Source: a virus. Taken from it: DNA of 47,190 nucleotides. Shown piece after piece: positions 1,950-25,354 of the stretch. The stretch's first letter is position 1, and each line of letters opens with the position of its first letter. Both the position numbers and the translations under genes were made by a program. Location: IMG/VR virus record IMGVR_UViG_3300046656_000662, positions 1 through 47,190 of that record; one strand, 5' to 3'. The notes beneath the pieces were generated by a model that saw nothing but the letters and a program-made list of their open reading frames with translations, ran no database searches and was not told where the DNA came from.

Positions 1950-2538
1950 GGTGTGCGGGTTGTGTAAGGGGAGGGGGACGCTGGGATTTGGGGCGGTTAA
2001 GTGCCCGAAGTGTTCCTCTTCGACTCCATCGACTCCATCGGATGATGTGGAGAGCGCGTTTGGGCCGAGTGGGGAGAAACACTCGATGTTCGATGACCAA
2101 ACGCCGGGGGAGAAGTGTGAGAAGTGCGGGGAGGTTCATGTCAGTTCGGAGGATATGGACCGGGTGAGGGAGTTGATTGAGGGGCATAAGGAGGAGGTGA
2201 AGGAGTTTCAGGACGAGGCGAAGCGGATGCTGAAGGCCCCGGAGAAGCTGGGGGTGGAGGAGTTTTTCCGCATCGTTGGGTATTTGGCGGGGAAGACTGC
2301 GGCCCTCGCGGACACCGCGATTTTGGGTGCGGACCCCTCGAAGCCAAGGATGGCTGGGACGGATGGGATTAGGCAGTTTGCGTTTGCGTGCTCGAGTCAG
2401 GGGTGCGCGGAGATGGTGGCGCTGGTGAGGGACCCGGAGAGCTGTGAACCGGAGCTGGTTGGGGTGGTTGCAGTTCTGCTAGGAGCAAATCCCTTGCATC
2501 GGAAGGGAGAGAAGAAACCAGGGCTAGGACGCGGTTGA
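1942..2538 (+). CDS. Zinc-finger protein with DnaJ-like CxxCxGxG start
   Basis: 198 residues. ATG 1942 overlaps the previous stop by 8 bases and is preceded by GGAGGTGAGACAGG. The N-terminus CGLCKGRG followed by CPKC resembles one DnaJ-type zinc module, and a further CEKC pair is near residue 60. The middle is charged and helical. The C-terminal 50 residues are coded over the 3' end of the minus-strand HTH gene (2369-2926), a 170-bp convergent overlap. One of the two C-termini may be incidental reading-frame extension. No function is assigned; chaperone-like or nucleic-acid-binding adaptor roles are possible. Confidence 0.72.
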   Translation: MSEVCGLCKGRGTLGFGAVKCPKCSSSTPSTPSDDVESAFGPSGEKHSMFDDQTPGEKCEKCGEVHVSSEDMDRVRELIEGHKEEVKEFQDEAKRMLKAPEKLGVEEFFRIVGYLAGKTAALADTAILGADPSKPRMAGTDGIRQFAFACSSQGCAEMVALVRDPESCEPELVGVVAVLLGANPLHRKGEKKPGLGRG

Positions 2539-4271: not shown

Positions 4272-4498
4272 CCGACACGACGAGTCCGAAGGGGAGTGAC
4301 TGCGGGTCGGTGTGGCATGAGCCGTACCTGTGTCACAAGTGCAAGCGGGTTGACGACTTCAATGATGAACTGAAGCGGTTGCGGGCCAAGCTGGACGCGC
4401 TGGTGAACGCAGCCGAAATCTACATCCGCACACCCTTGAACATTGACTTGGCAAGGGACCTGGTCACCGCGATCACGGAGGCGAGGGAAGGGACGTGA
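4268..4498 (+). CDS. Small protein with Cys-x2-Cys knuckle
   Basis: 76 residues, ATG 4268 coupled to the upstream membrane protein by ATGA. The N-terminal third contains Cys 12, a His and CHKC near residues 22-25, a probable zinc site. The C-terminal two-thirds is an amphipathic helix pair (DDFNDELKRLRAKLDALVNAAE). It resembles small phage proteins in which a zinc knuckle is attached to a coiled coil. It ends at TGA 4496-4498 with GTG 4495 starting the next small ORF. No family name was recognised. Confidence 0.7.
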   Translation: MTDTTSPKGSDCGSVWHEPYLCHKCKRVDDFNDELKRLRAKLDALVNAAEIYIRTPLNIDLARDLVTAITEAREGT

Positions 4499-4611
4499 GG
4501 AATCTACTGGCACGTATTGTTCATGCTTGGGTGCATCGTCACTGTGAGTCGTGGCCGTGTCGCCCGTGTGGTGGACCACAGCAGCAACAGCCTGGAGGGC
4601 GATGGCCATGA
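4495..4611 (+). CDS. Small Cys-rich ORF between coupled genes
   Basis: 38 residues from GTG 4495 (GTGA overlap with the previous stop), after GAGGGAAGGGAC. It ends at TGA 4609-4611, which overlaps ATG 4608 of the next gene as ATGA. The N-terminus is hydrophobic and basic (LLARIVHAWVHRHC), followed by CESWPCRPCGG and a Gln/Gly/Pro tail. Both boundaries show translational coupling, which is the main evidence that it is expressed. The Cys spacing suggests a metal site. Confidence 0.5.
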   Translation: MRNLLARIVHAWVHRHCESWPCRPCGGPQQQQPGGRWP

Positions 4612-4868
4612 GCGAACCGACCGAGCGGGATGAGAAGCTAGCGGCCGAAGCACTTGGCGAGGTGATTCAGGATGCGCTGCGCGGTGGCGATGCACACTCG
4701 CAGGAGGACATCATCGCAGCGAGACTTGCCACCGCCCGCGCCGAAGGGAAGGCGGAGGCTGTGCGGAGGGTGAGGGAGTGGACTGCTGACCCTTGGAACT
4801 TTGCGGAATGGCCCGATGGGGTTCGTGCGTTGGTCAAGATCCTGGACGAGATCGAGGGGAAGAAGTGA
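4608..4868 (+). CDS. Hypothetical helical protein
   Basis: 86 residues from ATG 4608, about 9 bases after GGAGGG (4594-4599); ATG 4602 is two codons earlier. Composition is Ala, Glu and Arg, all helix (AAEALGEVIQDALRGGD, AARLATARAEGKAEAVRRVREW), ending in a Trp/Asp-rich patch (ADPWNFAEWPDGV) and a second helix. It looks like a small soluble helical bundle. It overlaps the next gene (GTG 4865) by four bases. No family was recognised. Confidence 0.65.
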   Translation: MSEPTERDEKLAAEALGEVIQDALRGGDAHSQEDIIAARLATARAEGKAEAVRRVREWTADPWNFAEWPDGVRALVKILDEIEGKK

Positions 4869-5185
4869 AGAAGCAGAAGGACGTTCATCTAATCCTCCCC
4901 GTGGAGCTTGCGATGTTTGGCCGGGTTCTCGCAGCGGCAGAGGGGATTAGTTTTCCCGAGTGGATCCGGAGGGCGATGTGGAATGCGGCGGAGCAAGAAA
5001 CGCGGGAGAGGAACAGAACGAAGTTGGTTGAACACCCAGGACCTGGGGCCGGAGGTGGTGGAGAGGATTTGGCTCATAGCGAAGATGCGGGGGATGACCA
5101 ACGCGGGGAAGGCGTTCGGGATCTCGAAGGTGGCCCTGATCCGGATGTTCAGGGCGGCGGGCCTACTCCATCACCAGGAACCTAG
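4865..5185 (+). CDS. Ribbon-helix-helix-like small protein
   Basis: The frame opens at GTG 4865 (GTGA with the previous stop), after GAGGGGAAGAA, and codes 106 residues. The first 50 have an Arc/MetJ-like layout: a short beta strand (DVHLILPVELAM), then helices AMFGRVLAAAEG and SFPEWIRRAMWNAAEQ. This is a typical DNA-binding ribbon-helix-helix. The remaining half is Gly/Asp/Pro-rich and is read over the start of the HTH gene in another frame (200-bp overlap). A biological end near residue 50 would need a frameshift, so the long overlap may be real or the tail may be disordered. Confidence 0.6.
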   Translation: MKKQKDVHLILPVELAMFGRVLAAAEGISFPEWIRRAMWNAAEQETRERNRTKLVEHPGPGAGGGGEDLAHSEDAGDDQRGEGVRDLEGGPDPDVQGGGPTPSPGT

Positions 5186-5597
5186 GTGGGATGGGCTTCG
5201 GCTACAAGCGGCGGTGAAGAAGAGTGGGTTGGGGTTGGGGGAAGTGGTGTGTTTGATGGCACGGATCTTGCGAACGTTCCCACCAGAGGAAATGCACCGG
5301 CTCGCGAAGGAAGAGTTTGACTCGCTCCAGGGGAGCGATAAGATTAGGTGGGTGAGGGAGATTGCGAGGGCGCAGAGGGAACAGGCTAGGTATTGGAGGG
5401 GGAGGTGTTGGAGATGCGGAGAGTTAATGTCTCAGAAGTCCTCGATTTCATCGACTGCGAGCAGCTCCACCAGTACCACTGGCGGGATGGAAGAGGACAT
5501 TCTGGATCAGGCCCGCAGAGAATCGGAACGCTGGCGCACGAAGCCCTTGCGAAAGCAATGGTTGGGGAAAGCCCAGGACTGGTTGCGGACGGAGTAG
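4983..5597 (+). CDS. Helix-turn-helix DNA-binding protein
   Basis: 204 residues from ATG 4983, 9 bases after GGAGGG. The frame is open from 4908, but that part is shadowed by the upstream gene. After a basic N-terminus there is a clear HTH: LGPEVVERIWLIAKMRG, then NAGKAFGISKVALIRMFRAAGL. The middle is helical with a possible second DNA-contacting region. Near residue 140 there is CWRC, followed by a Ser/Thr-rich linker and a basic helix. The last 60 residues overlap the nuclease gene (start 5414) out of frame by 184 bases. It probably regulates transcription or assists the neighbouring recombination genes. Confidence 0.65.
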   Translation: MRRSKKRGRGTERSWLNTQDLGPEVVERIWLIAKMRGMTNAGKAFGISKVALIRMFRAAGLLHHQEPRWDGLRLQAAVKKSGLGLGEVVCLMARILRTFPPEEMHRLAKEEFDSLQGSDKIRWVREIARAQREQARYWRGRCWRCGELMSQKSSISSTASSSTSTTGGMEEDILDQARRESERWRTKPLRKQWLGKAQDWLRTE

Positions 5598-6425: not shown

Positions 6426-6615
6426 GGTACTCGCCACCCTAATGCTGGGGTTAGGATTGGGAGCGCTGATACTGATGTTGGTTGATGTGTGGGGCCAACA
6501 GAAGGATGGGTTCGGGGATTGGGTAGCCACGCTATGGCTGACTGCAATGGCGCTGCTGGTGATCGGGTTGATGGCCCTTGGTGTTCATCTCCTTTGGACG
6601 GCGGGGATAAAATGA
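6406..6615 (+). CDS. Two-segment membrane protein
   Basis: 69 residues from ATG 6406 (ATGATG; either codon possible), after GGAGAAG. It has two hydrophobic segments: residues 4-28 (LFKVLATLMLGLGLGALILMLV) and about 43-65 (LWLTAMALLVIGLMALGV), with a short polar loop QQKDGFGDW between. It is a predicted inner-membrane hairpin. Size and topology would also allow a class II holin or antiholin, but it sits among replication genes far from the lysis end of the genome. It ends at TGA 6613-6615, overlapping the ATG of the next gene. Confidence 0.7.
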   Translation: MMGILFKVLATLMLGLGLGALILMLVDVWGQQKDGFGDWVATLWLTAMALLVIGLMALGVHLLWTAGIK

Positions 6616-7418
6616 GGATCGTAGAAAAGTTGGAGAGTCAGCCTGAGAGGGTTGCGATTTACGGCCCGAGTAAGACGGGGAAAACGCAGCTCGCCACCGC
6701 ACTGCCGTGGGGAGAGAAGTGGGGGGAAGAGGCGGTTTATGTGCCGTATGACCCATCTGGGGAGGCGCTGAGGAGTGTGCTGAATCCGAACCGGGACCGG
6801 ATGCGGATGGTGGTGCCGGAGGGGAAGCCGAACTGGTTGGAGGAGAGCGTGGAGATCGTGACCACGAACTGGCGGGAGCGGTGGCCCAAGGCGAAGACGA
6901 TTATCATCGATACGATGACGGTGTTTTCCTTCAAGCTTCTGCGTCAGTACGCGAACTCGGGGGTTTTCAGCGAGAAGCATGCGGTGCAGCTGGGGGTGAA
7001 GGGGACGAAGAGCTGGCACACGAGCCCGATGGAAGGGGATTATGGTGCGGCGCAGGGATCTATTTCGTATGTGCTGGATCTGCTGATGGAGACGCAGAAA
7101 GATATGAATGTGATCGTGGTTTTTCACGATGACTTCCTCGAGCCGAAGGGCGGGAACCCAGATGGGCTTATTGGTGGCCCGGGGTTGGTGGGGAAGAAGG
7201 CGGTTAAGTGGATTCCTGGGCGGTTTGACGCGGTTTTTAGGATGGAGAGGACGAGTGGGTTGAGTGGGAGTAAGTGGGTTGTTCATACTGCGCAGAAGGG
7301 GATTTGGACAGCGGGGTTTCGGAACGGCAGTCCAAAAACTGCGATGCCCCCGCTAGTTGAGATTAGTGCGGGGGAGCAGAGAAAGTTCTGGGAGAGCTAT
7401 GACTCTGTCGGAGCCTGA
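6612..7418 (+). CDS. RecA-fold ATPase, Sak4-like recombinase
   Basis: 268 residues from ATG 6612, which overlaps the previous TGA (ATGA). Walker A is GPSKTGKT at residues 18-25, and the hydrophobic strand IIID ends in Asp 100 (Walker B). Downstream, MNVIVVFHDDF and WVVHTAQKG fit later RecA-core strands. The size and single RecA domain match phage Sak4/AAA_24 proteins, which anneal or exchange single strands with help from an SSB. The Cas4-like nuclease upstream and the DUF669-like protein downstream support a recombination/replication module. It has no N- or C-terminal DNA-binding domain of bacterial RecA. Confidence 0.85.
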   Translation: MRIVEKLESQPERVAIYGPSKTGKTQLATALPWGEKWGEEAVYVPYDPSGEALRSVLNPNRDRMRMVVPEGKPNWLEESVEIVTTNWRERWPKAKTIIIDTMTVFSFKLLRQYANSGVFSEKHAVQLGVKGTKSWHTSPMEGDYGAAQGSISYVLDLLMETQKDMNVIVVFHDDFLEPKGGNPDGLIGGPGLVGKKAVKWIPGRFDAVFRMERTSGLSGSKWVVHTAQKGIWTAGFRNGSPKTAMPPLVEISAGEQRKFWESYDSVGA

Positions 7419-9215: not shown

Positions 9216-9575
9216 GTGCGGACGGATTGGGTTGGGAAGATGAGTCCTGGGGAAGCGGTGGAGCTGGGGATTATTACCCAGGATGAGTTGTGGAGATGGG
9301 AAAGGGAACGGCCCGGTAGCTCAGAGGGATTAGAGCAGGGGTTTCCTAAACCTCAGGTCGCCAGTTCGAATCTGGCCTGGGCCACCATCCAACCACAGTT
9401 GGGGTGTGGGATGCAGCATGTTTGCTTTTGGTGTGGGGAGGTGGAGGAGTGTGGGTTTGCGCACACCGATCATCCTCCCACAGACCCAACAGACACCACG
9501 GAGTATGCTGGGGATCAGTATATGTGCGCTGCATGTAGGGAAGGAGGAGATGAGGATGACGAGGCTGGTGATTAA
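9216..9575 (+). CDS. Open frame spanning the tRNA, ending in a zinc ribbon
   Basis: The frame from GTG 9216 (AAGGAG at 9204-9209) to 9575 codes 119 residues and reads straight through the tRNA at 9310-9387. The first 30 residues (VGKMSPGEAVELGIITQDELWRW, split by me for the motif) look like a genuine helical protein. After the tRNA, ATG 9411 begins a 54-residue segment with CFWC, CGFAHTDH and CAAC, a zinc ribbon. Either two short genes flank a tRNA, or the tRNA has landed inside one gene without breaking its frame. The second zinc segment is the best supported part. Confidence 0.5.
   Translation: MRTDWVGKMSPGEAVELGIITQDELWRWERERPGSSEGLEQGFPKPQVASSNLAWATIQPQLGCGMQHVCFWCGEVEECGFAHTDHPPTDPTDTTEYAGDQYMCAACREGGDEDDEAGD
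9310..9387 (+). tRNA. tRNA-Arg (anticodon CCU)
   Basis: A full cloverleaf can be drawn: acceptor GGCCCGG (9310-9316) with CTGGGCC (9377-9383), D-arm GCTC/GAGC, anticodon stem GGGGT/ACCTC with loop TTCCTAA (9343-9349), a 5-base variable loop, and T-arm GCCAG-TTCGAAT-CTGGC. The anticodon at 9345-9347 is CCT, so it reads AGG (Arg). The CCA end is encoded (9385-9387). AGG is frequent in the plus-strand genes of this phage, so the tRNA probably supplements a rare host species. Confidence 0.95.
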
Positions 9576-12117: not shown

Positions 12118-12371
12118 TGGAGTGGATCCCGACGAAGAGTAAGTGGGGTGGGTTCGTTCCTTGGGTTCAGGTTGAACGCGAGCTGGGCAAGCAGTTCCGG
12201 ACGTTCATCCGGTGGCTGGGGGACGAGCCAACTCCATCTGATGCGAGAGGCAGCCTTGGGCCAACCGTGGCGCAGTTGGAAAGGTGGCGGGAATGCTGTG
12301 TGACGGATGCCCGAGGAAAGCGGAAGGGATCTGGAGCGGGGAGAGTGGGAACCCGAAAGCGCGGATCCTGA
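12117..12371 (+). CDS. Hypothetical protein upstream of the polymerase
   Basis: 84 residues from ATG 12117, which shares its A with the TGA of the previous gene (12115-12117). The first 50 residues are amphipathic with many Trp (EWIPTKSKWGGFVPWVQ, RTFIRWLGD), followed by a Cys pair ECC and a basic Gly/Arg tail. The last 79 bases overlap the polymerase start out of frame. The open frame continues upstream to 11880, but the coupled ATG is the most likely start. Confidence 0.55.
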   Translation: MEWIPTKSKWGGFVPWVQVERELGKQFRTFIRWLGDEPTPSDARGSLGPTVAQLERWRECCVTDARGKRKGSGAGRVGTRKRGS

Positions 12372-14554
12372 TCGTTGGGATGAGCCCGGGGGTTACGGAG
12401 CTGCTCCAAGGGGTGCCGTTCGTTGGGGCCTCTGGGAGGGTGCTCGCTGCGGCGTTGGGTGAGGCTGGGATTAACCTGCGGGAGTGTAGGTTGGTGAACA
12501 CCATCAACTGTCTCCCTGCGGGTGGGCTGAAGAAGATGGTGGTGGTGAGCGGGCAGAAGGTGCCGAACGGCACCAGCATTTCGAAGGAGCAGAAGACTGC
12601 GTGTGGGCCGAGGTTCAAGGCGGAGATGGAGAAGAGTGGGGCCGAGGTCGTTTTACTCCTGGGCGGCCAGGCCCTCGAGGCGGTAGGGGTGAAGGGGGAT
12701 ATTACTGAGTGGGCTGGGCACCTCATTGCGGGTGGGGAGGTCCCGGGCCCAATTCCTCCAAGGACTCGGTGGATCATCCCTTCACTCCACCCCTCGTATG
12801 TTATTCGGATGGGTGGGCTGAAGCTTTTTCCCATCCTCAAATCGCACTCAGATAGGCTCGCGCGGGCGCTGAACGGAAAGTTGGAGGTTGTCGATGGGAT
12901 CGGATCATCTCAACCAGCCACTGGTTGGGATTCTGGACCCATCGCACCTTCAACCCCTATCGCGTTTGACATTGAAACAGATAGGGAGATGAGGATTGAG
13001 AGGATTGGGATCTCCACCCCATTCGCGACGGGGAGCTGGGGATGGACCCCTTCGACGCAGGCTCTCGCGAAACGGATACTAGAGGGTCCGGGGGTTAAGA
13101 TTGCGCACAACGCAGCTTTTGACATCCCGATTTTGGAGCGCCATGGGGTGATGGTGAGTTGGCCCTGGTGGGACACCATGTGGGCTGCGCAACTTCTCCA
13201 CCCAGACCTCCCGAAGAGCCTCACTGCGGTGAGTGGACTCGTTCTTGATACCCCACCATGGAAGCATCTTAATACCAAGAGTCCTGAGTATTACAACATG
13301 ATGGATGCCCTGGTGACGCGGCGGTTGTATACTCCGCTGCGTGACGCCCTCGCGCGGGATGGGCTACTCCCGCTATTTGAGGGGAGTGTGATGGTGGCGC
13401 TGCGGACCCTGATGGAGATGACGAAGGTTGGGATCAGGGTGGATTTGGAGAAGCAGAGGGATTGGGCGGGGAACCTGAAGCGCAGGTTTGCTGCGGCGCA
13501 GGTGGAACTGAATGAGAGGGCGGGGAGGGAGATTAATATCAACTCCCCGAAGCAGCTTCAGACCCTTTTGTTTACCGACTTTGACCTCCCTACCCAGCGG
13601 AATGCTGCGGGCGGGGTGACGACAGATGCCGGGGCGCTGGAGCGGCTTTCACGCCGGGTCGCAGGGCCGCAACTCGAGGTGATCAGGCTGCTCCAGACGC
13701 TCCGGCAAACTTCGAAACTGATAGGCACCTACCTCCAACGATCTCCCACAGTTCATCCATCTTACTTCCCAGTGGGGAAGGACGACTCGCATTACGGCGC
13801 AGCGACGGGGAGGTTGAGTTCACAGAATCCTAACATTCAGAACCAGCCGAAGGAAGCGAGGATCATCTTCACCCCTCATGATCTGGCGAACCTGTTGGTG
13901 GAGGGGGATTATGGGAGCGCGGAGCTGTGGGCAGCGGCAGCTCTCTCACACGACGCCAAGTTGCTTGGGGTGTTGGAGAGCGGGGAAGATCTCCATGCGG
14001 TGAACTCGGAGCTGTTTGGGTGTGATAGGACCCGGGCGAAGAATCTGATGTATGGGACCCTTTATGGAGCTGGGCCGAAGAAGCTGATGGAGACGCTGCA
14101 GGCGAAGGGGATCTCCACCACGATGAAGGAGTGTAAGGAGCTGCAGGAGCGCCTCGCAGCCACTTACCCAGATCTTTGGGCGTGGAGGCTGAGGGTGGTG
14201 AGGGAGGTTGAGGAGACGGGGTTTGCGCAGAATCCGTTTGGCAGGCGCAGATACTTTGTGGATGTGCACAACTCGAAGCCCGAGATCATCAACTTCTTCC
14301 CGCAGAGCACAGTCGCGGATGTGGTGCTGAGGGTGGTGCCGAAGATTGCGGTTAGCGTGAGGGCGTATCGGGGGGAGATTCTTACTACGGTTCATGATTC
14401 CATCCTGACTGAGGTTCACAAATCGCAGTGGGAGATCTGGGCCCATAGGATGAAGGTTATTATGGAGGAGAAGATCCCGGAGTTGGGGATCAGTATTCCC
14501 GCAAGTGTGAAGATCGGGCTGCGCTGGGGCAGAATGCATGAGGTGAGGGTGTGA
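12293..14554 (+). CDS. DNA polymerase I with N-terminal uracil-DNA-glycosylase domain
   Basis: 753 residues from ATG 12293; GTG 12284 is in frame. Residues 1-195 match family 4-like UDG: Cys 3, 6, 73 and 104 for an iron-sulphur cluster, PFVGASGR, NTINCLP and HPS at 166-168. The motif usually written GEAPG is GMSPG (29-33), losing the acidic residue. Next is a 3'-5' exonuclease: Asp 226/Glu 228, HNAAFD, and YYNMMD (Asp 338). The family A polymerase follows: motif A EGDY with Asp 539, motif B R579-K583-Y587-G-Y591, motif C HDS at 701-703, where HDE is usual. Tyr 587 occupies the position of Phe 762 in E. coli Pol I, as in T7 polymerase. SPO1 polymerase has a comparable UDG-like domain. Confidence 0.93.
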   Translation: MLCDGCPRKAEGIWSGESGNPKARILIVGMSPGVTELLQGVPFVGASGRVLAAALGEAGINLRECRLVNTINCLPAGGLKKMVVVSGQKVPNGTSISKEQKTACGPRFKAEMEKSGAEVVLLLGGQALEAVGVKGDITEWAGHLIAGGEVPGPIPPRTRWIIPSLHPSYVIRMGGLKLFPILKSHSDRLARALNGKLEVVDGIGSSQPATGWDSGPIAPSTPIAFDIETDREMRIERIGISTPFATGSWGWTPSTQALAKRILEGPGVKIAHNAAFDIPILERHGVMVSWPWWDTMWAAQLLHPDLPKSLTAVSGLVLDTPPWKHLNTKSPEYYNMMDALVTRRLYTPLRDALARDGLLPLFEGSVMVALRTLMEMTKVGIRVDLEKQRDWAGNLKRRFAAAQVELNERAGREININSPKQLQTLLFTDFDLPTQRNAAGGVTTDAGALERLSRRVAGPQLEVIRLLQTLRQTSKLIGTYLQRSPTVHPSYFPVGKDDSHYGAATGRLSSQNPNIQNQPKEARIIFTPHDLANLLVEGDYGSAELWAAAALSHDAKLLGVLESGEDLHAVNSELFGCDRTRAKNLMYGTLYGAGPKKLMETLQAKGISTTMKECKELQERLAATYPDLWAWRLRVVREVEETGFAQNPFGRRRYFVDVHNSKPEIINFFPQSTVADVVLRVVPKIAVSVRAYRGEILTTVHDSILTEVHKSQWEIWAHRMKVIMEEKIPELGISIPASVKIGLRWGRMHEVRV

Positions 14555-15768
14555 GAGAGAGGACCACTGATCTGACTGCGGTGGGGAAGTTTGCCCTGGG
14601 GTGGTTGGGAAGGTATGTGGATGGGGTGGGGAGGAATAGGATTCCGAACTCGTTTCATCTGCTCTCCGGGATGCTAACCCTAGGGGCAGTGGTGGGCCGG
14701 AAGGCGCGGATCGCACGCTCGACCTACGAGATGTGGCCCGCGGTTTCCATCCTGCTCCTGGGGAGTTCTGGGGTGGGGAAGAGTCAGAGTCTGGGGTTGG
14801 CGAGGAGGGTGATGAAGGCGGCGACGAAGACGCAGCTGGGGATGGAGCCGAGGTTGGGGTGGTTCGATGGAACCGGCGCCTTCACTTCGAGAGGGATGAT
14901 GCAGCAGTGGGCGGAGATACAGAAGAGTGAGGGGACGGAGTGGATTGAGGGGATGCATGTGGAGGGGGAGATCGCGAACATCGTGACGCAGCGGAAGGGG
15001 AATGAGCTGATTTCCACCTGGTTGATCCAGGCGCTCGAGCACCAGGACATGGTGGATTACACGGGGCTTTATGGGAAGATGGAGGTTAAGGGGCTGACGG
15101 TGGGGTTTGGGCTCGGGAGCACGGTGGAGTATTTGCGCCGGGCCCTGAGTCCAGATGAGTTTGCGGGTGGGTTTATGCACCGGTTTCTCATTGCGTATGA
15201 GTTGAACCCGGATCGGACCCATGAGGAGAGGACCGTAGATTCTTCAGTTATAGAACGGCTTGCGCAGGAGCTTCGGGAGATTAGGGAGTGGGCGCCCGCA
15301 GATATTGCGGTGACCGACGCCGCCACCCGCAGATTGTCCCTTCTGCACAAGCAGGAGAAGTTTTACTCCAACCACCGGTTGGCGGGGTTTTGGAACCGGT
15401 ATGACTCGCTCACGTTGAGGATCGCTCAGGTGCTGGTGATCGCGCAGATGAAGGACACGGTGGGGGTGGAGGAGCTGGAGCTCGCGGATGAGCTGCTGCG
15501 CAACCACCTTTATCCACCGTTGGAGTGGATTCTGGAACAGGTGAGCGCGAACTGGCAGAAGAAGGAACTGCTGGATGTGGCGGATTCGCTGAGAAGCGCT
15601 GGGCCGAAGGGGTGGACGATGCAGCAGCTTCTACGCAAACTGGGAAAAGGGGCGAACGGGAGTATGGACGCCATCGTTGCGATGGAAGAGCAGGGACTCC
15701 TCCACCGCAACGGATCGCGCGTGTTTAGGTTTAAGGCTTGGTCGAACCCGGAGGAAGACCCTGAATAA
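14551..15768 (+). CDS. DUF3987-like ATPase, candidate replicative helicase/primase-helicase
   Basis: 405 residues from GTG 14551 (GTGA with the polymerase stop). The N-terminal 60 residues are helical (FHLLSGMLTLGAVVGRK); the core has Walker A LLLGSSGVGKSQ at about residues 67-78, then an acidic strand and a helical middle. A C-terminal winged-helix-like stretch (GWTMQQLLRKLGKGANGSMDAIVAMEEQG, cited here only by position, about residues 350-380) may bind DNA. The order resembles DUF3987 proteins, which replace DnaB-type helicases or helicase-primases in many phages. It is the last gene of the plus block and ends 38 bases inside the convergent holin-like gene. Confidence 0.75.
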   Translation: MRERTTDLTAVGKFALGWLGRYVDGVGRNRIPNSFHLLSGMLTLGAVVGRKARIARSTYEMWPAVSILLLGSSGVGKSQSLGLARRVMKAATKTQLGMEPRLGWFDGTGAFTSRGMMQQWAEIQKSEGTEWIEGMHVEGEIANIVTQRKGNELISTWLIQALEHQDMVDYTGLYGKMEVKGLTVGFGLGSTVEYLRRALSPDEFAGGFMHRFLIAYELNPDRTHEERTVDSSVIERLAQELREIREWAPADIAVTDAATRRLSLLHKQEKFYSNHRLAGFWNRYDSLTLRIAQVLVIAQMKDTVGVEELELADELLRNHLYPPLEWILEQVSANWQKKELLDVADSLRSAGPKGWTMQQLLRKLGKGANGSMDAIVAMEEQGLLHRNGSRVFRFKAWSNPEEDPE

Positions 15769-16365: not shown

Positions 16366-19300
16366 TCAATACCCGGTTCGGACACCCCTACGCGCCTTCA
16401 TGGCCTCGATTTTTTCGTGGTCATCGTTGTACATGAACTTGATCCAACCGGGGTAGTTGAGCCACCGGAGCTCATCAGCGGAGAGCTCCTGGCGCTTTAC
16501 CGCGTTGCGCATCCGGTCCGCGATCATGTCCTTGGTGATGGGGATCTGCTGGCCGTTTACCATCACGGGCTCGTTCAGGCGGGCGTCAGCGTCGAGGACA
16601 GCGTCGGAGTTGGGGTCCATTTTGGTCGTCCGGCGCCAATGCTCGATTCGGATGTCCAGCTCATGGGCCACGATTTCTTGCGCAGCTTGGGACTTCAGCG
16701 CGAAGTGGCGCTGCTCGGCGTCCAGAGTGGATTGGGGGAAGAAGAGCCGGGCTGCGGCTTCGGCTTTGGAGGATTGGATGGCCCCGCCGTTGGAGGTGGG
16801 GCGGGAGGAGTCGCGCCATTCGTCCCACGCCCCGACGTAATCGCGGATGGCGTGGGTGGGGATGCCAGCAGCGAGGCCAGGGAGGTCCTGCATCACGCGC
16901 TCGAGCGGGCCTTGGGCCCCTTTGTAGTCCCCGTCCCCTGCCATCCCGAGGCCAGTGAGGAGATCTAGAGCCATTGAGGCTTCGGGGCTCGCGACGATGG
17001 GGATCCCGCCGAGGTTCTTGGTCATGGGGAGGAAGCCCAGGCCAACCCAGGAGCTCGCGTCGGCCCCGAACCAGTTGTCCATCCGGTTCACGATGACGGA
17101 GCTGAGCGCCCAAAACCGCAACAGCCCAGAGGGGTCCTCGTGGAGGACGCGGTTTAGAACACCCACCTGCTTCGGAGCGAAGGAGAGGAGGGTGGTGAAG
17201 GGGCGGATGAAGGGGTTGTTGGTGAGGGGTGGGCGACCCAAGGACCCGTAGAGGTGGGTCTCGTAGATGGCTTCCATTCGGGAGTAGTGGAGGAGGGAAG
17301 TTTTTTCCTTCGGGGTGGCGTGGATGAGGAAGTCACCTAGGCTCCTCGCGCCAGAGTCCCGGGCGAACTTCTCCGCCGCGGTGTTGAACGCCACCGCCTT
17401 GCCCCAGTATTCGCCCATGTTGAACGCGGTGAAGAGGCCGTTGTCGAGGTGTTCGTAGATTCCTTTGTGGAGCAGCCCCTCTTCGAACACTCCCTTCCAC
17501 GCCCGCATCAACCCAGATTCCTTGATGAGGTTCTGGTGGAGTGGGTTGAAGACGGAGAGCGCGCCACGGACGGTGTCGGGGAGACCCTTGCGCATCACGG
17601 TGTTGACGGTGATGAAGGTGTTGGCGATGGCAGCGTCCAACCGACCACCGAGAGTCGCGCGGATCATGTGGTGCTGGACGGCGAAGGCGTATTTTTGGAC
17701 CGCGTTGACTTCGGGGAACGGGCGGCGGCCTTCGATGAAGGCCCCGAAGCCGGGGTGGACTTTGTTTAGGATGTTCGCGGTCCGCGCAAACAGCCCCTTG
17801 TCGAGGTTCTCGTTCATCATGTGGCCGACGTATCCGAAGGTGTAGTCCAGGGCCCGGTGGATCTGGCCAGGCTTCGCGGCTTGGCCGGTGATTTGATCCA
17901 CCAACCGCCCAACCATCACCCGCTGCGATGGGGGGAGCCCGGTGAGGAGGGTGTTGCCTTCGGCCCATCGGCGTGCCGCTCCTACTCCCTGGCGGATGGG
18001 CTTGGAGGTGTAGCGCTGGACGAATGGGTCCATGGCTTCCTTCCTGCGCGCGAGCCACGCGAAGTCCTGGATTAGGTCGATAGCGGAACCCTGAGCCCCA
18101 CCGATTGGGCGCTTGCCCTTCGGGAGTTTGATGTCCCGGATGGTGCGGTTGGACACATTCGCCACTACGTCAGCAGGGACAAACTTCCCATCCCCCATCA
18201 TCCCACCCATGTCCTTCATCAACCCGCTGCGGGAGAGGCCAACGGACTGACGCAGATCCCCCACAATGAGACCAAGGTTCTTGAGCCACGCCTGCTCCCC
18301 CGGGGTGAAGGCTTTGAGGGATCGTTGGCCGGTGAGCCATTCGTAGACGTGTTGGTCCATGATAGAGCCGTGGGATAGTGCAGCAACTGGGGCGGTGATT
18401 TTGGAAAGTTTGTTAGTGGTCTTCCCCACCATCCCACTCGCCTTGCCCCAGGCTTGGTTCACCTCGCGCAGGGAGTATTTCCCTTGGCGCATGATCCAGG
18501 AGTTGATGTCAGCCTCGGGCCATCCCATTGCTTGGCGCAGTTTGATCATCCGCGCGAGGGAGGGGGATTCGGAGAAAATCGCGTCGAATTCCCCCGCAAG
18601 CTTCGCCACTGGCGCACCCTTTTGGACCACGAACCTTCTCCCACCCGCGACGAAGTCTTCCATGATCCCGGGGATCTTGGTCCGCGCACCAACCTCCCCA
18701 ACCATGTGGCGCCCGAGGTTCACGAAGTTGAGGGTGGCGTTGATGTTGGCGGGGATAGCGCCGTTTGCGGCGGAGTGCGCAAGGTCTTTTCCGGTGCGGT
18801 AGGTGTTGGGGAAGGTTTGCTGGGCCACTGGCGCAGACCCACTGGTTCCCTTGATCCAACTCTTCAACCGCGGGACATCGTTGTCCACCAGTTTGGTTTC
18901 TGCGTCGAGCATCCGGTTTACTGCCTCTTCACCAATCCCGGTTCCGCGAAGCGCGTTTAGGGGTTCGATGAAGAGCCCGTTCACCTGGCCCATCAGGCGG
19001 GAGTGGCCGATGGCTTTGAAGGGTTTGCCGAGGGCTTGGGCAGTGCGGGTGCCTGCGATGAGTTTGGTGTACTTCAGCCCCGTGGCCTCAGGGATCCCGG
19101 GGATGAGGAGGGTTGGGTCGATGATGTTGTCGTAGAGCACGTCCATCATGTCCCCAACGGTCAGTTGGCGTTCGGGGAGGTCCATCAACCGCCGCACCCT
19201 CTTGTCGAGAGCTGCGATGGGGGAGATGAGATCGCCCATCGGACCAGCGCCGTAGAGGGGGATGGAGTGGAGGGTTTCACTGAGCGCGTGGCCGTAGTAG

Positions 19301-19767
19301 AGCTCGGTTTGGTCGTGGCCGGTGATCTCGATCTTTCCCTTCATCGCGTCGAGGACCGCGTGGGCCCAGGTGTCGAGGGAAGGGACCACGGATTCGCCAG
19401 AAGCGAGCCGGTTGCGTCCAAGCATCGCAGCAACCGCAGGGACCACGAGGGCTTGGCCAGTTTCGACCGTGCGGTTGAGGGCTTCCATGGGCTTGGAGAA
19501 CCAGGGCTTTGAGGCGAAGAATAGGTTCGACCTCATGCCCATGGTGATGAGCTTGTCGCCCCAGTCCCGGGAGTTTTCCTTCATCCGGGTGATGAGATTG
19601 GTTTGGTGCTGGGCAGCGTCTTCGTCGCTCACCACCCCAACCGCTGCGGCGTCGGTTAGGAGCTGGGAGGTGGCGTCGTCAACGCTTGGTGCCGAACTCG
19701 AGCTCTGACTTGGCATTTTGGCCAGCGCCTGGTCCGTTAGGGCTCGGAGTTCCTGATCCGTTGGCAT
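16366..19767 (-). CDS. Large internal virion/ejection protein
   Basis: 1133 residues from ATG 19767, after GGAGGTGTGA. It is long, mostly helical, Ala/Gly/Leu-rich, and without a signal peptide. No lytic transglycosylase motif was recognised. The position as the third of three consecutive genes after the tailspike, each larger than the last, parallels the T7 gp14-gp15-gp16 internal core set whose proteins are ejected with the DNA. Its first 89 bases overlap the end of the upstream gene. Assignment is by size, composition and position rather than by a defined domain. Confidence 0.65.
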   Translation of the reverse strand: MPTDQELRALTDQALAKMPSQSSSSAPSVDDATSQLLTDAAAVGVVSDEDAAQHQTNLITRMKENSRDWGDKLITMGMRSNLFFASKPWFSKPMEALNRTVETGQALVVPAVAAMLGRNRLASGESVVPSLDTWAHAVLDAMKGKIEITGHDQTELYYGHALSETLHSIPLYGAGPMGDLISPIAALDKRVRRLMDLPERQLTVGDMMDVLYDNIIDPTLLIPGIPEATGLKYTKLIAGTRTAQALGKPFKAIGHSRLMGQVNGLFIEPLNALRGTGIGEEAVNRMLDAETKLVDNDVPRLKSWIKGTSGSAPVAQQTFPNTYRTGKDLAHSAANGAIPANINATLNFVNLGRHMVGEVGARTKIPGIMEDFVAGGRRFVVQKGAPVAKLAGEFDAIFSESPSLARMIKLRQAMGWPEADINSWIMRQGKYSLREVNQAWGKASGMVGKTTNKLSKITAPVAALSHGSIMDQHVYEWLTGQRSLKAFTPGEQAWLKNLGLIVGDLRQSVGLSRSGLMKDMGGMMGDGKFVPADVVANVSNRTIRDIKLPKGKRPIGGAQGSAIDLIQDFAWLARRKEAMDPFVQRYTSKPIRQGVGAARRWAEGNTLLTGLPPSQRVMVGRLVDQITGQAAKPGQIHRALDYTFGYVGHMMNENLDKGLFARTANILNKVHPGFGAFIEGRRPFPEVNAVQKYAFAVQHHMIRATLGGRLDAAIANTFITVNTVMRKGLPDTVRGALSVFNPLHQNLIKESGLMRAWKGVFEEGLLHKGIYEHLDNGLFTAFNMGEYWGKAVAFNTAAEKFARDSGARSLGDFLIHATPKEKTSLLHYSRMEAIYETHLYGSLGRPPLTNNPFIRPFTTLLSFAPKQVGVLNRVLHEDPSGLLRFWALSSVIVNRMDNWFGADASSWVGLGFLPMTKNLGGIPIVASPEASMALDLLTGLGMAGDGDYKGAQGPLERVMQDLPGLAAGIPTHAIRDYVGAWDEWRDSSRPTSNGGAIQSSKAEAAARLFFPQSTLDAEQRHFALKSQAAQEIVAHELDIRIEHWRRTTKMDPNSDAVLDADARLNEPVMVNGQQIPITKDMIADRMRNAVKRQELSADELRWLNYPGWIKFMYNDDHEKIEAMKARRGVRTGY

Positions 19768-20953
19768 TCACACCTCCAGCGGCAGCGGCGTTTGCGCGGA
19801 GGAGGTTTTGGATCTTGAGGCCGGTGGTGGATTCAGCCTTTCGCGCGATGGCCACGATGTGGTCGGTCCACTGTTGGGAGCGAGAAGCCTCGTCGCCGGA
19901 GAGCTTGAGGGTGCCGTTGTTCCGGTCCTCAATCGCGATTGAGTAGATCATGTCACTAACCAAGGTTGGGTTGGTGTTGATCAGGGTTTCAAACGCGGTC
20001 CGCAGCTCAGCCTGCTCGGTGGCGGAGATAGTGCCGGTGAGCATTTTAGGTGCGGTGTGTTTGAGGACCCGCAGGACCCGCATCTTCGCAGCTACCGCAC
20101 GCCCGGTGATGTCAGACGGTTGGCCAGTCATGCTCTGGCTCACCCAGCTCTTCATCCAATCCGGCGCATTGAAGTAGTCTGCGGTGTCGAGGGCGCTTTG
20201 GGCCACTTCGACGGGTGTGTTGAACTGGAGGTTGTCGGAGTTGGCGTAGATCTTGACCATGTCATCGAGGTTCCCCACTGCCCCACCAACCGTCCCACCC
20301 CCCGCAGCCTTCGCCTTCGCAAGGTCCCGCTCAGCTTGGATCTTTTCAGTCTGGGCCTTGGTCTGCTCGAGCTCGAGAGCAGCGGTTTCCTTCGCCATCG
20401 CAGGATCTTTTGAGATCTCCGCATAGCGGGCGTTGATCTCTGCGAGGTGGGTGTCGGCGGAGTCCTTGCGCTTCTGCAGCGCCTCGAGCTCTGGAGCCGC
20501 TTGGGCCTGACGCTGCGCCTCACTCAGCGCGAGTTCCTCACCCTTCAGCTTCACATCCGCGGACTTCGCCGCAGTCTCAGCCGCAGCCTTCCTCCCCGCC
20601 ACAGCCTCTGGCGTCACAGCTTCATCGCTCAGGGTCGCCTGGTTCTGGGAGGTTTTTGTCTCCGCGACCCCCTGGGGGGTTTCGGTTTGCTTCGCCTTCT
20701 CCCCCGCCACTGCGAGGTCCTGGTGGTACTTCGCCAGGTTTACGGAGTTCTCGAAATCCTCCTTCCGCTGGTTCGCCGCGTCCACTGCGGCGCGCTGTTG
20801 GGCGAGGTTGGTGAGGACCAGCTCCATGGTCTTTGGGTCGTTGGAGGCATTCGCGAGGGCAAAGGCGAATAGGTTAGATAGGCTCTGTTGGGGAGCTTGG
20901 GTGGGGACTTTGGTCGCGGACTTCGGCCCTTTTACTTCATCAATCGCACCCAT
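19679..20953 (-). CDS. Internal virion protein, coiled-coil middle
   Basis: 424 residues from ATG 20953, which shares a base with the previous stop (TGATG) behind AAGGAGGGG. The centre (residues 80-215) is a long Ala/Glu/Lys/Gln coiled coil (AETAAKSADVKLKGEELALSEAQ cited by position, near 125-147). The C-terminal third is globular with GNLDDMVKIYANSD and a Gly/Pro/Ser tail. It is the second of the three probable ejection proteins. Long helical proteins of this kind form tubes during podovirus DNA ejection; this role is inferred from position. Confidence 0.6.
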   Translation of the reverse strand: MGAIDEVKGPKSATKVPTQAPQQSLSNLFAFALANASNDPKTMELVLTNLAQQRAAVDAANQRKEDFENSVNLAKYHQDLAVAGEKAKQTETPQGVAETKTSQNQATLSDEAVTPEAVAGRKAAAETAAKSADVKLKGEELALSEAQRQAQAAPELEALQKRKDSADTHLAEINARYAEISKDPAMAKETAALELEQTKAQTEKIQAERDLAKAKAAGGGTVGGAVGNLDDMVKIYANSDNLQFNTPVEVAQSALDTADYFNAPDWMKSWVSQSMTGQPSDITGRAVAAKMRVLRVLKHTAPKMLTGTISATEQAELRTAFETLINTNPTLVSDMIYSIAIEDRNNGTLKLSGDEASRSQQWTDHIVAIARKAESTTGLKIQNLLRANAAAAGGVNANGSGTPSPNGPGAGQNAKSELEFGTKR

Positions 20954-21444
20954 CACCCCTCCTTCGCGGGAGTCACCGGCTTGGGAGAGAACACCCGAGA
21001 GAGGATGTCCCCGAAGTCGGGGGAGGCCATCACCCCAGCGACGCCCCCCGCGATGCGATTAAACACCCCGGGCTGGTAGGCGTAGGGGGATTGGGACGCA
21101 GCGCCGGTGAGGCCGGAGGCGAGTTGGGTGACCATTTTCCTCAGCTCGAACTCACTCCGGGCGGTTGAGGTGCCGAGGTAGGACTGCCCCACAGCGCCTG
21201 CAGCTTGGCCAGCGCCGGTGCCAAACGCGCCGGTCCGGCCAAAGTTGGCGGAAAGGCTCTGGGCCATCTGGGCCGCTTGGCCTTGGTAGGCTTGGGAGAG
21301 CCCCTGGGCCGCGGGGCGGAAGTAGGCTTCGTTCTGTGCCAGGAACCCTTGGTAGAGCTGGTTCAGGTTGGGCTTGCCGTTGACCAGCCCAGACAGACCC
21401 CCAGCCCCGACCCCGAGAAGCAGTTGTGCGATAGCGGGCAGCAT
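20953..21444 (-). CDS. Internal virion protein, small Ala/Gly-rich
   Basis: 163 residues from ATG 21444, after GCAGGAGGTGTCTG. The N-terminus is hydrophobic (MLPAIAQLLLGVGAGGLSGLV), the middle Gln/Ala/Gly-rich (QAYQGQAAQMAQSLSANFGR). This matches the style of small podovirus internal virion protein B, which helps form the trans-envelope channel. It is the first of the three probable ejection proteins. No strict motif exists for the family, so the name rests on composition and gene order. Confidence 0.6.
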   Translation of the reverse strand: MLPAIAQLLLGVGAGGLSGLVNGKPNLNQLYQGFLAQNEAYFRPAAQGLSQAYQGQAAQMAQSLSANFGRTGAFGTGAGQAAGAVGQSYLGTSTARSEFELRKMVTQLASGLTGAASQSPYAYQPGVFNRIAGGVAGVMASPDFGDILSRVFSPKPVTPAKEG

Positions 21445-21499
21445 CAGACACCTCCTGCAAGAATCATACCAAACAACCCAGCCTCAGGCATAGGAGCCA

Positions 21500-24400
21500 T
21501 TACAGCACGTCCCAGACGCCCGCCGCGCCGCAGAACAGGTGGGCTTTTTGGAATGCCGTGTTGAACACAAGCGTCGTGGCAGTGTCGATGGTGTCGGCGC
21601 CGGCCCGCGTCCAGGTGATCGTGTTGATGACGCTGCACGCGCCAGAGGCGTCCTTGAGCCAGAGGTGCTTCCCGAGCACGGCAGCGGGGAGAGTCGGAGC
21701 CCTTGCGGCGGAGATGTTGGTGTAGCGTGCGATGGTCGTCGTGGCGGCTACGGCGGGCGCGGCATCGTTGATGTTCTCGATGCCGGTGGTTTTGAAGGAC
21801 TCCCCAATGGAGAATCCCTTGTCCACGATCAGGGACCTGTCGGTGCCGCTGGACGGGATGTAGAGGCGGTTTTTCTCGGTTGCCCCCGCGTCGTACCAGA
21901 CCATTACGCCGTACTGCCCGGAGGGGGAGGTTGGGTTCGCGAACATCGCGAAGACCGGCGCGTCGCCTGCGGTGTAGATACCGAAGGATCGCTTGGTGCT
22001 GTCAGAGTTCCGCGCGGCGAGGACCGGGATGTCGGACCCCGCGTTGCCGACCGCAAGCAGTCGCCCACCGGGGAACGGGAACATGAAGAGGTCGCCGCCG
22101 CTCGGGTAGAACTGGCCGACGCCACCGACGCGGAGTCCCTGGTTGACGAGGATGTCCCAGACGCCGTTTTGGGTTGCGGTCGCCAGTGAGAGGTAGTTCC
22201 GCTCGGTGGTGGAGTTGTCGTAGAAGCCGTAGTACCCATGCTCACCAGCGGGACCTGCCGCGCGGGTGAGCATCGTGCGCTCGGCCGAACCCGTCACGCG
22301 CTTCGTTTCGATGAGGTCGGTAACGTCGGTGCCGCCGTACATTTGCACCAGGGACTCGTTGTTGCCGCCTGCCCAGATAGAACCCCAGCCGGTGAAGAAC
22401 TGATTCTTGTTGTTGATCGTGCTCGTGCCGATGAACTCAATGCGTGCGTTGTCGATGATGTGGTTGAGTTCGTCGCCGTGGAAGAAGACGTTGCGCGTCA
22501 TGTTGGAAGTGGAGGTCGCGGCCTTGCCGATGGTGATGTCGATGCCGTCCGCACCTGGGTCGGCAGTTACGACGTTGTGGCCCTCCCAGCGGCAGGAGTA
22601 GAAGTAGTTCTCCAGGCCCTCCACGCGGACCTTGCGATGCGCGGGGGATACAGACGTCGTCTCCCAGTTGCAGCCCCAGAAGCGGTTGTTGTTCGGGGCG
22701 TGCGCGACTGCTGCCCAGAGGATGCGACAGATTTCGACGCCGTAGGTTGCGTCAACAACCTCGGCTGCTGGGAAGGCCGATTCGTGCTGGTGCTCGCAGT
22801 TGTAGAAGTCGTTCTCGTTGACGAAGGCGTCGGCGCCAGCCTGCTCCAGCGTGAAGGAATAGCGGTTGTTGAGCGCACGGCAGGCGTGGAAGACGTTCTC
22901 GGAGAAGCCGTTGCCGGTTGCGCCATTGCGCCCGATCATGTAGTAACCGCGGCTGAAGCCCTCCACTTGGAGATCGCGGAACTCGCATCGGTTCGTCGCG
23001 ATGATCGTGAGCCCATCGTAGGCGACACCAGTACCAGGGCCAGAGAACGCGGTGTCGTAGTGGAACGTGTAGGTCCTCTTGATGGTCAGGCCCATGATGA
23101 TGGACTGGCGGACCTGCGTCCCACCCAGCGCCCCAACGGTGACAGCGGAGGTCCCGGTGAGATTTGCGGTGCCGAAGTCGAACACCGCCCCATAGGCCCA
23201 GATAACCTGGTTGCTGTTCAGAAATGAGATCGGGGTGCCGCAGACGTAGGTCCCTGGTTCGAACCAATTCGCGCCGAGGTCGATGGCGGTTTGGATCTCC
23301 ACCGACATATCCACGCCGGTGTTTGGGACAACTGCGAACTCACGCGCGTTCACCATGCCGATGAAGTGGTTGTTCGTCCCGAGGTCTGCAATCGGGCCAG
23401 AGCCATTGCCGGAATAGATGTTCCCGCGCATCGCGTTGTCGGCGGTGGTCGCGACCATGTTGAGGCCGTAGGTCGAGTTGTCCTCCAGCTTGCAGAACTC
23501 AACCAGGCCCTCTTGGGACTGGAGGTTGATCCCGGCGCCGATGTTACTCACGCACTTAGCGTGGGAGATCGTGAGGCGCTGCACGGGCTCTTCGGCGGCG
23601 ATCCCGGGGCCACCGTTGTTGTAGGAGTGGACGTTAGTGAGAGTGCAGTTCGCGACGGTGGAGGTGGAGGCGTCCTTCCCGACGCGCACCCCATCTTGAG
23701 CGTTGTTGTAACAGTAGACGTTGGTGAGCTTCACGCGTTCGACAGCGTGAGCCCCACCCCCGGTTACGATGGGGTAGATCCAGATGCCGATGCCGAGCGG
23801 GGTCCCGGCGCCGTTCGTGTTGTGGTGGCTGTGAACGTTGGAGATCTCGCCATCCGAGATGCCCCACCGGATGCCTGCCTGGTAACAGTGGTGGACGTTG
23901 ACGTTGTCCACGCGGTAGCCGGTCCAGAAGGTCCCCGCGGCGTTCTGCTCTGTGACGGTGATACCGGCCTGGTCAGAGCGATTCGCAAGGTTGCAGTAGG
24001 AGATGTCGAGACCGGTGAGGGTGACGTTCTCCGTGTGCTCGGTGTCGATTAGGATCCCGGAGCGCATGCAGTTCTTGATGATGCCGGGGCCGATGGTGAT
24101 GCTGTTGCTGTACTTGTCGATGTTGATACCGTTAGCGATGGTCGTCCCGGCGCCAACCGCATGGTCCCAGTCATCCGCCACCCCTGCGCCGATGTCGTTC
24201 TGCGAGTGGCACCCGTCGATATTGAAGTTGCAGTAGGTGATCTGCTTCACGTTCGAGTGCGTGTTGAGGCCGGTGGTGGACGAGCCCCAGATCTGCTGGC
24301 CGTCGCCCACGCACTTGCCGCTGAACACCGAGAAGTCAACCCCGTGGCGCAGGCGCTCCCACGTCCCACCAAACACCAACCCATCCCAGCAAGAATAGGT

Positions 24401-25354
24401 GGTGACCCCGTAACCACGAGAGTCAAGGCGCGAGGCGTCCCGGCCATTGGCGCCGACCACAAAAAACCCCTCACATCGGGAGAGCTGGAAGCAGGAATTG
24501 AAACAGGCGACGCCAGTGAGGCCAGAGATGTGGGGGTGGATAGCGGCGTAGGCGTAGATGCCGTGGGCAGTTCCATCACCAGACGGCGCGAAGTCGTTCG
24601 TGATGTAGGCGCCCTCGCCCTTGATCCACACGTTCTCAACTGGCGTCGCGAGGTAGACCTTCGCCGTCGCGGCCGTCGTATAGGCATCGTGGATTGGGTA
24701 GTAGAGGTTGAGCACCCCTACGGCCGTTGATTTGACCCGATTCCATTCCCCGTGAACACACTCAGCCGGGACCGCCACCGCCGCCGCCATGGTGTCTTCG
24801 ATCCAAATCCACGAGCCCGCTGGGAAGAACGCCTCGTCGCCCCCAGCAACCGCAATGTCCACATCGTCCCCATCGATGTTGGCGGTGGCGTTTTTAGTGG
24901 TCGCGGTGATGGTTCCTTGGATTTGAATCACACCACGCTGGGCGCTGGTGGTGGCGTTTGCGATCTTTGCGAGCGTGACCCCCGCGTCGATCTCCACCCT
25001 CACATTCGACTTGTCGATGATCCAGTCACTCACGAAGTTGTAGGGCATCCCATTGTCGGGCCAGGGGACGTAGATCGTTCCGCCGCTTGCGGGGAGGGCG
25101 CGAACGGCGGCGTTGAAGGCGCCTGCGTTGTCGAACGTGGTTCCAGCAACCGCCCCAAACGCAGGATCAGTCACGTTAAGCCTTGGGCCCCCAGACGAAG
25201 ATGTGACTTGGGTCTGGGTCACTGCGTTTAGGTCGAGGGAGGTGGTGGAGCGTTTACCACCGGAGGTATGGAGATACTGCTGGATGTACTCCAGCAAATC
25301 CCTCTCCCGCTTCTCCATGTTCGGTGGAACTGGGAGTCCGTGGAATGCTTTCAT
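21500..25354 (-). CDS. Tailspike with two parallel beta-helix domains
   Basis: 1284 residues from ATG 25354 (ATGA overlap with the upstream gene). The N-terminal 50 residues form a short helical anchor (EKRERDLLEYIQQYLH). A pectate-lyase-type beta-helix starts near residue 70 (FDNAGAFNAAVRALPASGG and TIYVPW) and continues with right-handed turns rich in Asn and Val. A second beta-helix begins near residue 695 (MSVEIQTAIDLGANWFEPG). The C-terminus is a Trp/Ala-rich end domain. Such spikes bind and often cleave host polysaccharide. The base composition of about 21.5-24.3 kb differs from the rest of the operon, which suggests that most of the spike was acquired by recombination. Confidence 0.88.
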   Translation of the reverse strand: MKAFHGLPVPPNMEKRERDLLEYIQQYLHTSGGKRSTTSLDLNAVTQTQVTSSSGGPRLNVTDPAFGAVAGTTFDNAGAFNAAVRALPASGGTIYVPWPDNGMPYNFVSDWIIDKSNVRVEIDAGVTLAKIANATTSAQRGVIQIQGTITATTKNATANIDGDDVDIAVAGGDEAFFPAGSWIWIEDTMAAAVAVPAECVHGEWNRVKSTAVGVLNLYYPIHDAYTTAATAKVYLATPVENVWIKGEGAYITNDFAPSGDGTAHGIYAYAAIHPHISGLTGVACFNSCFQLSRCEGFFVVGANGRDASRLDSRGYGVTTYSCWDGLVFGGTWERLRHGVDFSVFSGKCVGDGQQIWGSSTTGLNTHSNVKQITYCNFNIDGCHSQNDIGAGVADDWDHAVGAGTTIANGINIDKYSNSITIGPGIIKNCMRSGILIDTEHTENVTLTGLDISYCNLANRSDQAGITVTEQNAAGTFWTGYRVDNVNVHHCYQAGIRWGISDGEISNVHSHHNTNGAGTPLGIGIWIYPIVTGGGAHAVERVKLTNVYCYNNAQDGVRVGKDASTSTVANCTLTNVHSYNNGGPGIAAEEPVQRLTISHAKCVSNIGAGINLQSQEGLVEFCKLEDNSTYGLNMVATTADNAMRGNIYSGNGSGPIADLGTNNHFIGMVNAREFAVVPNTGVDMSVEIQTAIDLGANWFEPGTYVCGTPISFLNSNQVIWAYGAVFDFGTANLTGTSAVTVGALGGTQVRQSIIMGLTIKRTYTFHYDTAFSGPGTGVAYDGLTIIATNRCEFRDLQVEGFSRGYYMIGRNGATGNGFSENVFHACRALNNRYSFTLEQAGADAFVNENDFYNCEHQHESAFPAAEVVDATYGVEICRILWAAVAHAPNNNRFWGCNWETTSVSPAHRKVRVEGLENYFYSCRWEGHNVVTADPGADGIDITIGKAATSTSNMTRNVFFHGDELNHIIDNARIEFIGTSTINNKNQFFTGWGSIWAGGNNESLVQMYGGTDVTDLIETKRVTGSAERTMLTRAAGPAGEHGYYGFYDNSTTERNYLSLATATQNGVWDILVNQGLRVGGVGQFYPSGGDLFMFPFPGGRLLAVGNAGSDIPVLAARNSDSTKRSFGIYTAGDAPVFAMFANPTSPSGQYGVMVWYDAGATEKNRLYIPSSGTDRSLIVDKGFSIGESFKTTGIENINDAAPAVAATTTIARYTNISAARAPTLPAAVLGKHLWLKDASGACSVINTITWTRAGADTIDTATTLVFNTAFQKAHLFCGAAGVWDVL

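Follow-up and report, generated by a model that had tools for sequence, protein, structure and literature searches.

Eleven uncultured phages have lost the catalytic glutamate of a uracil-DNA glycosylase (UDG) domain that accompanies a family A DNA polymerase, and four of them have lost the whole active site whilst keeping the fold, which points to a role for the domain in copying DNA rather than in repair. The phage that led to this group is represented by a 47,190-base record, here called the window. The domain architecture of its polymerase was already known; what appears from the sequences to be new is a clade with the motif A sequence GM(A/S)PG, together with a sister group without a uracil pocket, and as far as could be shown neither is described in the literature and collections searched. 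The clade constitutes a natural series, from a near-complete to a lost pocket on related polymerases, and because it spans this range, a few purified proteins could suffice to distinguish repair from uracil sensing and both from a simple hold on DNA. If the interpretation is true, it would add to poxvirus D4 another, independent example of a UDG retained for the sake of replication and not for cutting.

The fusion gene and its domains

The fusion protein, P0001, comprises 753 amino acids and combines a UDG, a 3'-5' exonuclease and a family A DNA polymerase. Its gene occupies positions 12293–14554 on the plus strand, as do all the features of it listed below. The frame begins with ATG at 12293, with GTG at 12284 as the alternative, and is open to 14554 with no internal stops, ruling out a broken frame; GC content by codon position is coding-like over both halves. 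The earlier note had proposed a UDG-like domain in one frame with a family A polymerase, and Pfam bears this out, placing UDG (PF03167) at residues 19–174 (E 2.4e-19; 70.2 bits against a cut-off of 24.3), DNA_pol_A_exo1 (PF01612) at residues 221–307 (E 1.3e-5) and DNA_pol_A (PF00476) at residues 393–746 (E 4.1e-59). An AlphaFold model of the whole protein, built with 24 aligned sequences, has a mean pLDDT of 90.6 and a pTM of 0.87. Its best match in BFVD extends over 863 aligned columns with a TM-score of 0.83, and the Foldseek matches shown against the PDB are headed by the polymerase part.

Profile and sequence tests agree in placing the first 195 or so residues inside the UDG superfamily, as had been supposed, with family 4 and UdgX as the nearest relatives of the N-terminal domain (residues 1–197, 12293–12883); the modelled fold of the related L152 domain points the same way. 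Searches with phmmer returned UdgX at 3e-13, TmUDG at 7.5e-12 and TthUDGa at 2.5e-8. The PDB matches are led by UdgX and family 4 and include no SMUG1 entry; the uracil-DNA glycosylase 2d3y, which we take to be a UDGb, is found among them at E 0.007. Against the curated family 4 profile TIGR00758 the window scores 43.8 bits, far under the cut-off of 125.3.

The UDG residues were assigned by alignment to the Thermus enzyme TthUDGa, the sequence of which was verified as identical to PDB 1UI0, and to about 97 UDG-PolA proteins. Motif A is GMSPG (residues 29–33, 12377–12391), in which Met30 replaces Glu41 of TthUDGa, the usual acidic residue, and Ser31 replaces Gly42; in addition Lys83 has become Asn72. 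The column of Asn89, the water-coordinating residue of TthUDGa, contains Gly in all seven proteins of the GM type, represented in the window by Gly78 or Gly93 according to the alignment, and Asn92 adjoins Gly93. Retained are Glu36 (Glu47 of TthUDGa), Phe43 in the segment PFVGASGR (residues 42–49, 12416–12439) as the equivalent of the stacking Phe54, Asn69 (12497–12499) as that of the uracil-contacting Asn80, His166 (His155) in motif B, HPSYVIR (residues 166–172, 12788–12808), and Arg172 (Arg161), the roles of Phe54 and Asn80 being taken from PMC5387724. Four cysteines, Cys3 and Cys6 (12299–12310), Cys73 (12509–12511) and Cys104 (12602–12604), align with the family 4 Fe-S ligands Cys13, Cys16, Cys84 and Cys100; the 4Fe-4S cluster itself is predicted. 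The earlier note had picked out these cysteines, Met30, PFVGASGR and HPS (residues 166–168), as well as Tyr587 and HDS in the polymerase, and each was recovered in its place.

The exonuclease domain (12953–13321) has all of D226, E228, D277, Y334 and D338. In the polymerase domain (13469–14530) the family A catalytic residues D539, R579, K583, Y591 and D702 are present, along with H701 and Tyr587 (14051–14053), the latter at the position of Klenow Phe762; motif C is HDS (residues 701–703, 14393–14401). The view that key polymerase residues are meaningfully altered does not hold up against column counts in 90 distinct UDG-PolA sequences. HDS is the commonest form of motif C there (50 sequences, against 21 with HDA and nine with HDE), and in the Phe762 column 40 sequences have His, 33 have Phe and 13 have Tyr. 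A Tyr is found there in T7 polymerase too. By its residues, the polymerase of P0001 is ordinary for the UDG-PolA group.

Distribution of UDG-PolA fusions

UDG-PolA fusions are widespread in phages, and hundreds of IMG/VR contigs carry one. At least 80% of the P0001 query is covered by 55 of 50,697 public phage records, and a search with the UDG domain alone yielded 45 records, many of them annotated as DNA polymerase. Patterns built on the UDG motifs matched 397 IMG/VR stretches, 345 of which encode a relative; 80 relatives were kept, with a single open frame of at least 735 amino acids in 78 and a split one in two. A single-protein scan of viral contigs with P0001 found no relative. Phage PaBG and further 'Lupandier' phages are already on record as carriers of the fusion (PMC7412058), and PDB 9QHS, residues 34–1175 of a protein of Thermus phage phiLo, has the same architecture. 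A likeness to the SPO1 polymerase with its UDG-like domain had also been suggested and is supported by hhalign (SPO1 gp31, 97.7%, E 1.5e-12). The window shares the order UDG, 3'-5' exonuclease, family A polymerase with SPO1 gp31, PaBG, phiLo (9QHS), Rhizobium RHph, Microcystis Mel-JY34 and Pseudomonas PMBT14, albeit at an identity of only about 25–30%; most known fusions retain an acidic motif A residue, Glu or Asp, in contrast to the GM(A/S)PG of the window group. The literature searches found no paper that tests the role of the UDG domain in these phage fusions.

Motif A in known UDG families

With the family 4 enzymes TthUDGa (1UI0) and TmUDG (1VK2) the window shares the superfamily domain, the four cysteines and the equivalents of F54, E47, N80 and H155. 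It differs in being fused to a polymerase and in having GMSPG where family 4 has GE(A/G)PG, besides the substitutions at K83 and N89. UdgX, the source of the best single PDB matches, carries GEQPG and a KRRIH loop with a cross-linking His, whereas the stretch of the window aligned to this loop is GQKVPNG; with the loop missing, cross-linking of the UdgX type was ruled out. Family 5 UDGb and SMUG1 resemble the window in that the corresponding place in motif A is taken by Met or another hydrophobic residue (GMAPG, GLAPA, GMNPG), but the rest of the window domain aligns better with family 4 and UdgX.

Met30 alone is no proof of lost activity, since Met is normal at this place in SMUG1 (GMNPG) and in some UDGb. 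More broadly, Met or Leu/Ile is the normal second residue of motif A in SMUG1, TDG and UDGb (PMC10359453). A scan of genome contigs for relatives of the Met type, limited by the pattern used, returned free-standing UDGb-like proteins at only 25–36% identity and no fused relative. These proteins (L228–L256) come mostly from Alphaproteobacteria and have the motif GMAPG, which shows no more than that UDG families of other kinds can accommodate Met.

A clade without the motif A glutamate

The family 4 motif A glutamate is kept in none of the eleven uncultured phages, that is, the window and ten relatives. Seven have the motif [GP]M[A/S]PG and retain the uracil-contacting Asn and His, whilst four (L151–L154) have lost motif A, Asn80 and His155 altogether. 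The relatives beyond L021 were reached by two routes. A scan with an alignment of the window and L021 UDG domains added L101, L102, L103 and L105, all with GMAPG, and a further scan, whose patterns covered the polymerase alone and took no account of the UDG motif, brought in L150–L154, the nearest five by polymerase. L150 has PMAPG, and Leu in place of Phe54. Nearly all other aligned UDG-PolA proteins have Glu or Asp at E41, in a sample that gives no free count, having been gathered with patterns restricted to E or M at this site; the exceptions are L021 (GMSPG), L044 and L047 (GMAPG) and a few degenerate public phages. A sequencing error at Met30 is unlikely because independent contigs carry Met there: L021 with the identical GMSPG, and L101, L102, L103, L105 and L150. 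The change in the window UDG is real, heritable and old.

In a tree built from polymerase columns, without those of the UDG, the window, L021, L101, L102, L103 and L150–L154 form one group (SH-aLRT 100, and 99 in a smaller set), with L151–L154 together inside it and the GEAPG-bearing sequences outside. These are quick trees without bootstrap, in which branching within the clade is only partly resolved, and L105, known by its UDG part alone, is absent. M30, E36, N69, H166 and R172 are invariant in the window and its six pocket-bearing relatives. The window, L021 and L101 have the full set of Fe-S cysteines, which L102, L103 and L150 lack. L044 and L047, which keep K83, N89, the four cysteines and an otherwise canonical pocket, fall elsewhere in the tree, and since they are placed apart from the clade, Met has probably replaced Glu on two or more separate occasions.

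Two members differ in gene structure. In L021 (3326–7133) the UDG (286 amino acids) and the polymerase (587 amino acids) are encoded apart, and a gene for a C5-cytosine methyltransferase (4346–5398; PF00145, 2.1e-18) lies between them; this represents either a fusion gene split by insertion or the unfused state. In L101 (6729–7457) an intein-like insert of 243 amino acids lies within polymerase motif B, right after AKNFYYG; its first residue is Cys and its last Asn, followed by Thr.

The N-terminal domains of L151–L154 gave no PF03167 match in a genome-wide profile search. Profile-profile comparison nevertheless relates them to the GM group (hhalign, 99.8%, E 4.7e-30). When the L152 domain was modelled with AlphaFold from four sequences (pLDDT 80), the PDB folds nearest to it were those of TthUDGa (1UI0) and UdgX (E about 1e-4), with low TM-scores of about 0.5. 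Identity among the four is 35% in the N-terminal domain and 52% in the polymerase. On alignment and model, the uracil pocket is gone in these phages, yet the domain persists, and we infer that only a DNA-binding or structural role can remain.

Possible functions of the domain

The explanation that ranks first, held tentatively and at a little less than an even chance, is that the domain is a uracil-binding module which cuts weakly or not at all and is tethered to the replicative polymerase. It would grip DNA and flip uracil into its pocket beside the replicating polymerase, hydrolysing it slowly or not at all, and would act not as an efficient glycosylase but as a uracil sensor and/or DNA grip that pauses or locates the polymerase. 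Binding is favoured over fast hydrolysis because the recognition set is kept whilst E41 and a conserved N89 are lacking; the absence of Glu41 from the five members found by polymerase patterns alone lends support. In family 4, His155 serves the leaving group and Asn80 holds the uracil, and in TthUDGa k2/Km falls about 900-fold in E41Q and about 7-fold in N89A (PMC5387724). Likewise, the UdgX double mutant E52A-H109A is inactive (PMC10776899). The sensor reading does not follow automatically, because TthUDGa E41Q also lost detectable uracil-DNA binding. The earlier suggestion that the domain may bind uracil-type bases instead of cutting them is plausible, because Glu41 and Asn89 are missing throughout the clade and the domain is retained in a pocketless sister group, but Met30 does not establish it.

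Vaccinia D4 provides an analogue. Like the window domain it is a UDG that works with the replicase of a virus and has an altered motif, its motif 1 being GIDPYP in place of GQDPYH (PMC1936997); it is still described as uracil-specific. It serves the polymerase independently of catalysis (PMC1936997; PMC4450493). Unlike the window domain, it is of another UDG type, that of the GQDPYH-type motif, and is a separate protein, bound via A20 to the polymerase E9.

Against a weakly or non-cutting module it can be said that cutting may persist, Met, Leu and Ile being normal there in SMUG1, TDG and UDGb; that Asn92 of the window, next to the G93 column, could substitute for Asn89; and that the fold match of the decayed domain comes with low TM-scores. 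A bolder proposal, which we regard as doubtful, is that one lineage has been converting a replicase-fused glycosylase into a non-cutting reader of DNA or uracil. The catalytic residues would have been lost first (window, L021, L101), in some members the Fe-S cysteines as well (L102, L103, L150) and in others the whole pocket (L151–L154), whilst the domain stayed on the polymerase. The window would then possess a sensor for uracil in the template, comparable in its effect to the pocket with which archaeal family B polymerases read ahead for uracil.

Second in rank, and improbable though by no means negligible, is an active UDG with retuned catalysis, in which GM(A/S)PG works like the GMNPG of SMUG1 or the GLAPA/GMAPG of UDGb and uracil is removed in step with replication by virtue of the fusion, for genome fidelity, as suggested for PaBG. 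Met at the site in SMUG1 (PMC10359453) and in free-standing bacterial UDGb-like proteins would fit, as would the separate change in L044 and L047 with their K83, N89 and cysteines intact. Mean identity among five GM members is 46% in the UDG domain and 35% in the polymerase, a comparison partly biased by the finding of these loci through the UDG domain; in pairs with L150, found through its polymerase, the two are about equally conserved, so conservation of the UDG domain seems at least comparable. Set against this, no conserved water-coordinating residue is present, the third residue of motif A being Ser or Ala and not Asn or Asp, the N89 column is Gly in the GM group, and substitutions of E41 cripple TthUDGa (PMC5387724).

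An unlikely third is that the domain is only a structural element or a DNA grip for processivity, with uracil recognition incidental, by analogy with the replication role of D4. The retention of the domain in L151–L154 after the loss of motif A, Asn80 and His155 would accord with this, as would the missing Fe-S cysteines of L102, L103 and L150 and the binding of undamaged DNA by D4, whose service to the polymerase needs no catalysis (PMC1936997; PMC4450493). The invariance of E36, N69, H166 and R172 in the window and six relatives goes beyond the needs of a passive grip.

Finally, it is most improbable that the domain reads a modified pyrimidine, such as hydroxymethyluracil (hmU), in the DNA of the phage itself, for although SPO1, with hmU DNA, has the same architecture and the public UDG-PolA loci lacking Asn80 have a TS-like gene nearby, the window retains E36 at the C5-blocking position and lacks the relevant genes. 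Families of TS, dUTPase, dCMP deaminase and C5-MTase were not found in the 47,190-base window, nor were TS and dUTPase in the ten relatives, some of them fragments. With TS, dUTPase and dCMP deaminase absent, nothing in the window supports hmU DNA, and the link to it drawn in the earlier note is not supported for this phage.

Amongst the public loci, a TS-like gene lies nearby in all six without Asn80 and in six of 85 with a full pocket. The six loci are L008, L013, L014, L015, L019 and L020, and the phages, in an order not paired with these, are SPO1, LysYB1, PMBT14, P744, Tlacuache and KimJongPhill. This association is a lead only, from related loci in a biased sample, and is not applicable to the window.

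Genome setting

A 127-base direct repeat is common to both ends of the window record, as would be expected if the genome is circular and complete; it encodes terminase, portal and capsid families. Upstream of the polymerase is a gene for a Sak4/RecA-like AAA protein (6489–7418, plus strand; phrog_124, 3.1e-12), homologues of which lie close to the polymerase in nine related loci. Directly downstream is a DUF3987 primase/helicase-like gene (14551–15768, plus strand; PF13148, 1.1e-7; phrog_14296), with a homologue in L101. The terminase (38844–40550, minus strand) has one weak match in the 50,697 public phage records and homologues of 31–48% identity in four related records; the window and its relatives represent an uncultured phage lineage.

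Several other genes may be mentioned. A methyltransferase-like gene (37802–38596, minus strand; Methyltransf_11, phrog_6636) lies between portal and terminase, and a glycosyltransferase-like gene (30731–32383, minus strand; phrog_7162, 5e-23) amid the structural genes. Two very long frames of 1133 and 1284 amino acids at 16366–25354 (minus strand) are without any PHROG match, and 1942–2538 (plus strand) has a weak MqsA-antitoxin-like match under the Pfam cut-off. A tRNA-Arg (CCT) gene is located at 9310–9387 (plus strand), within the block of rightward genes that lies upstream of the polymerase.
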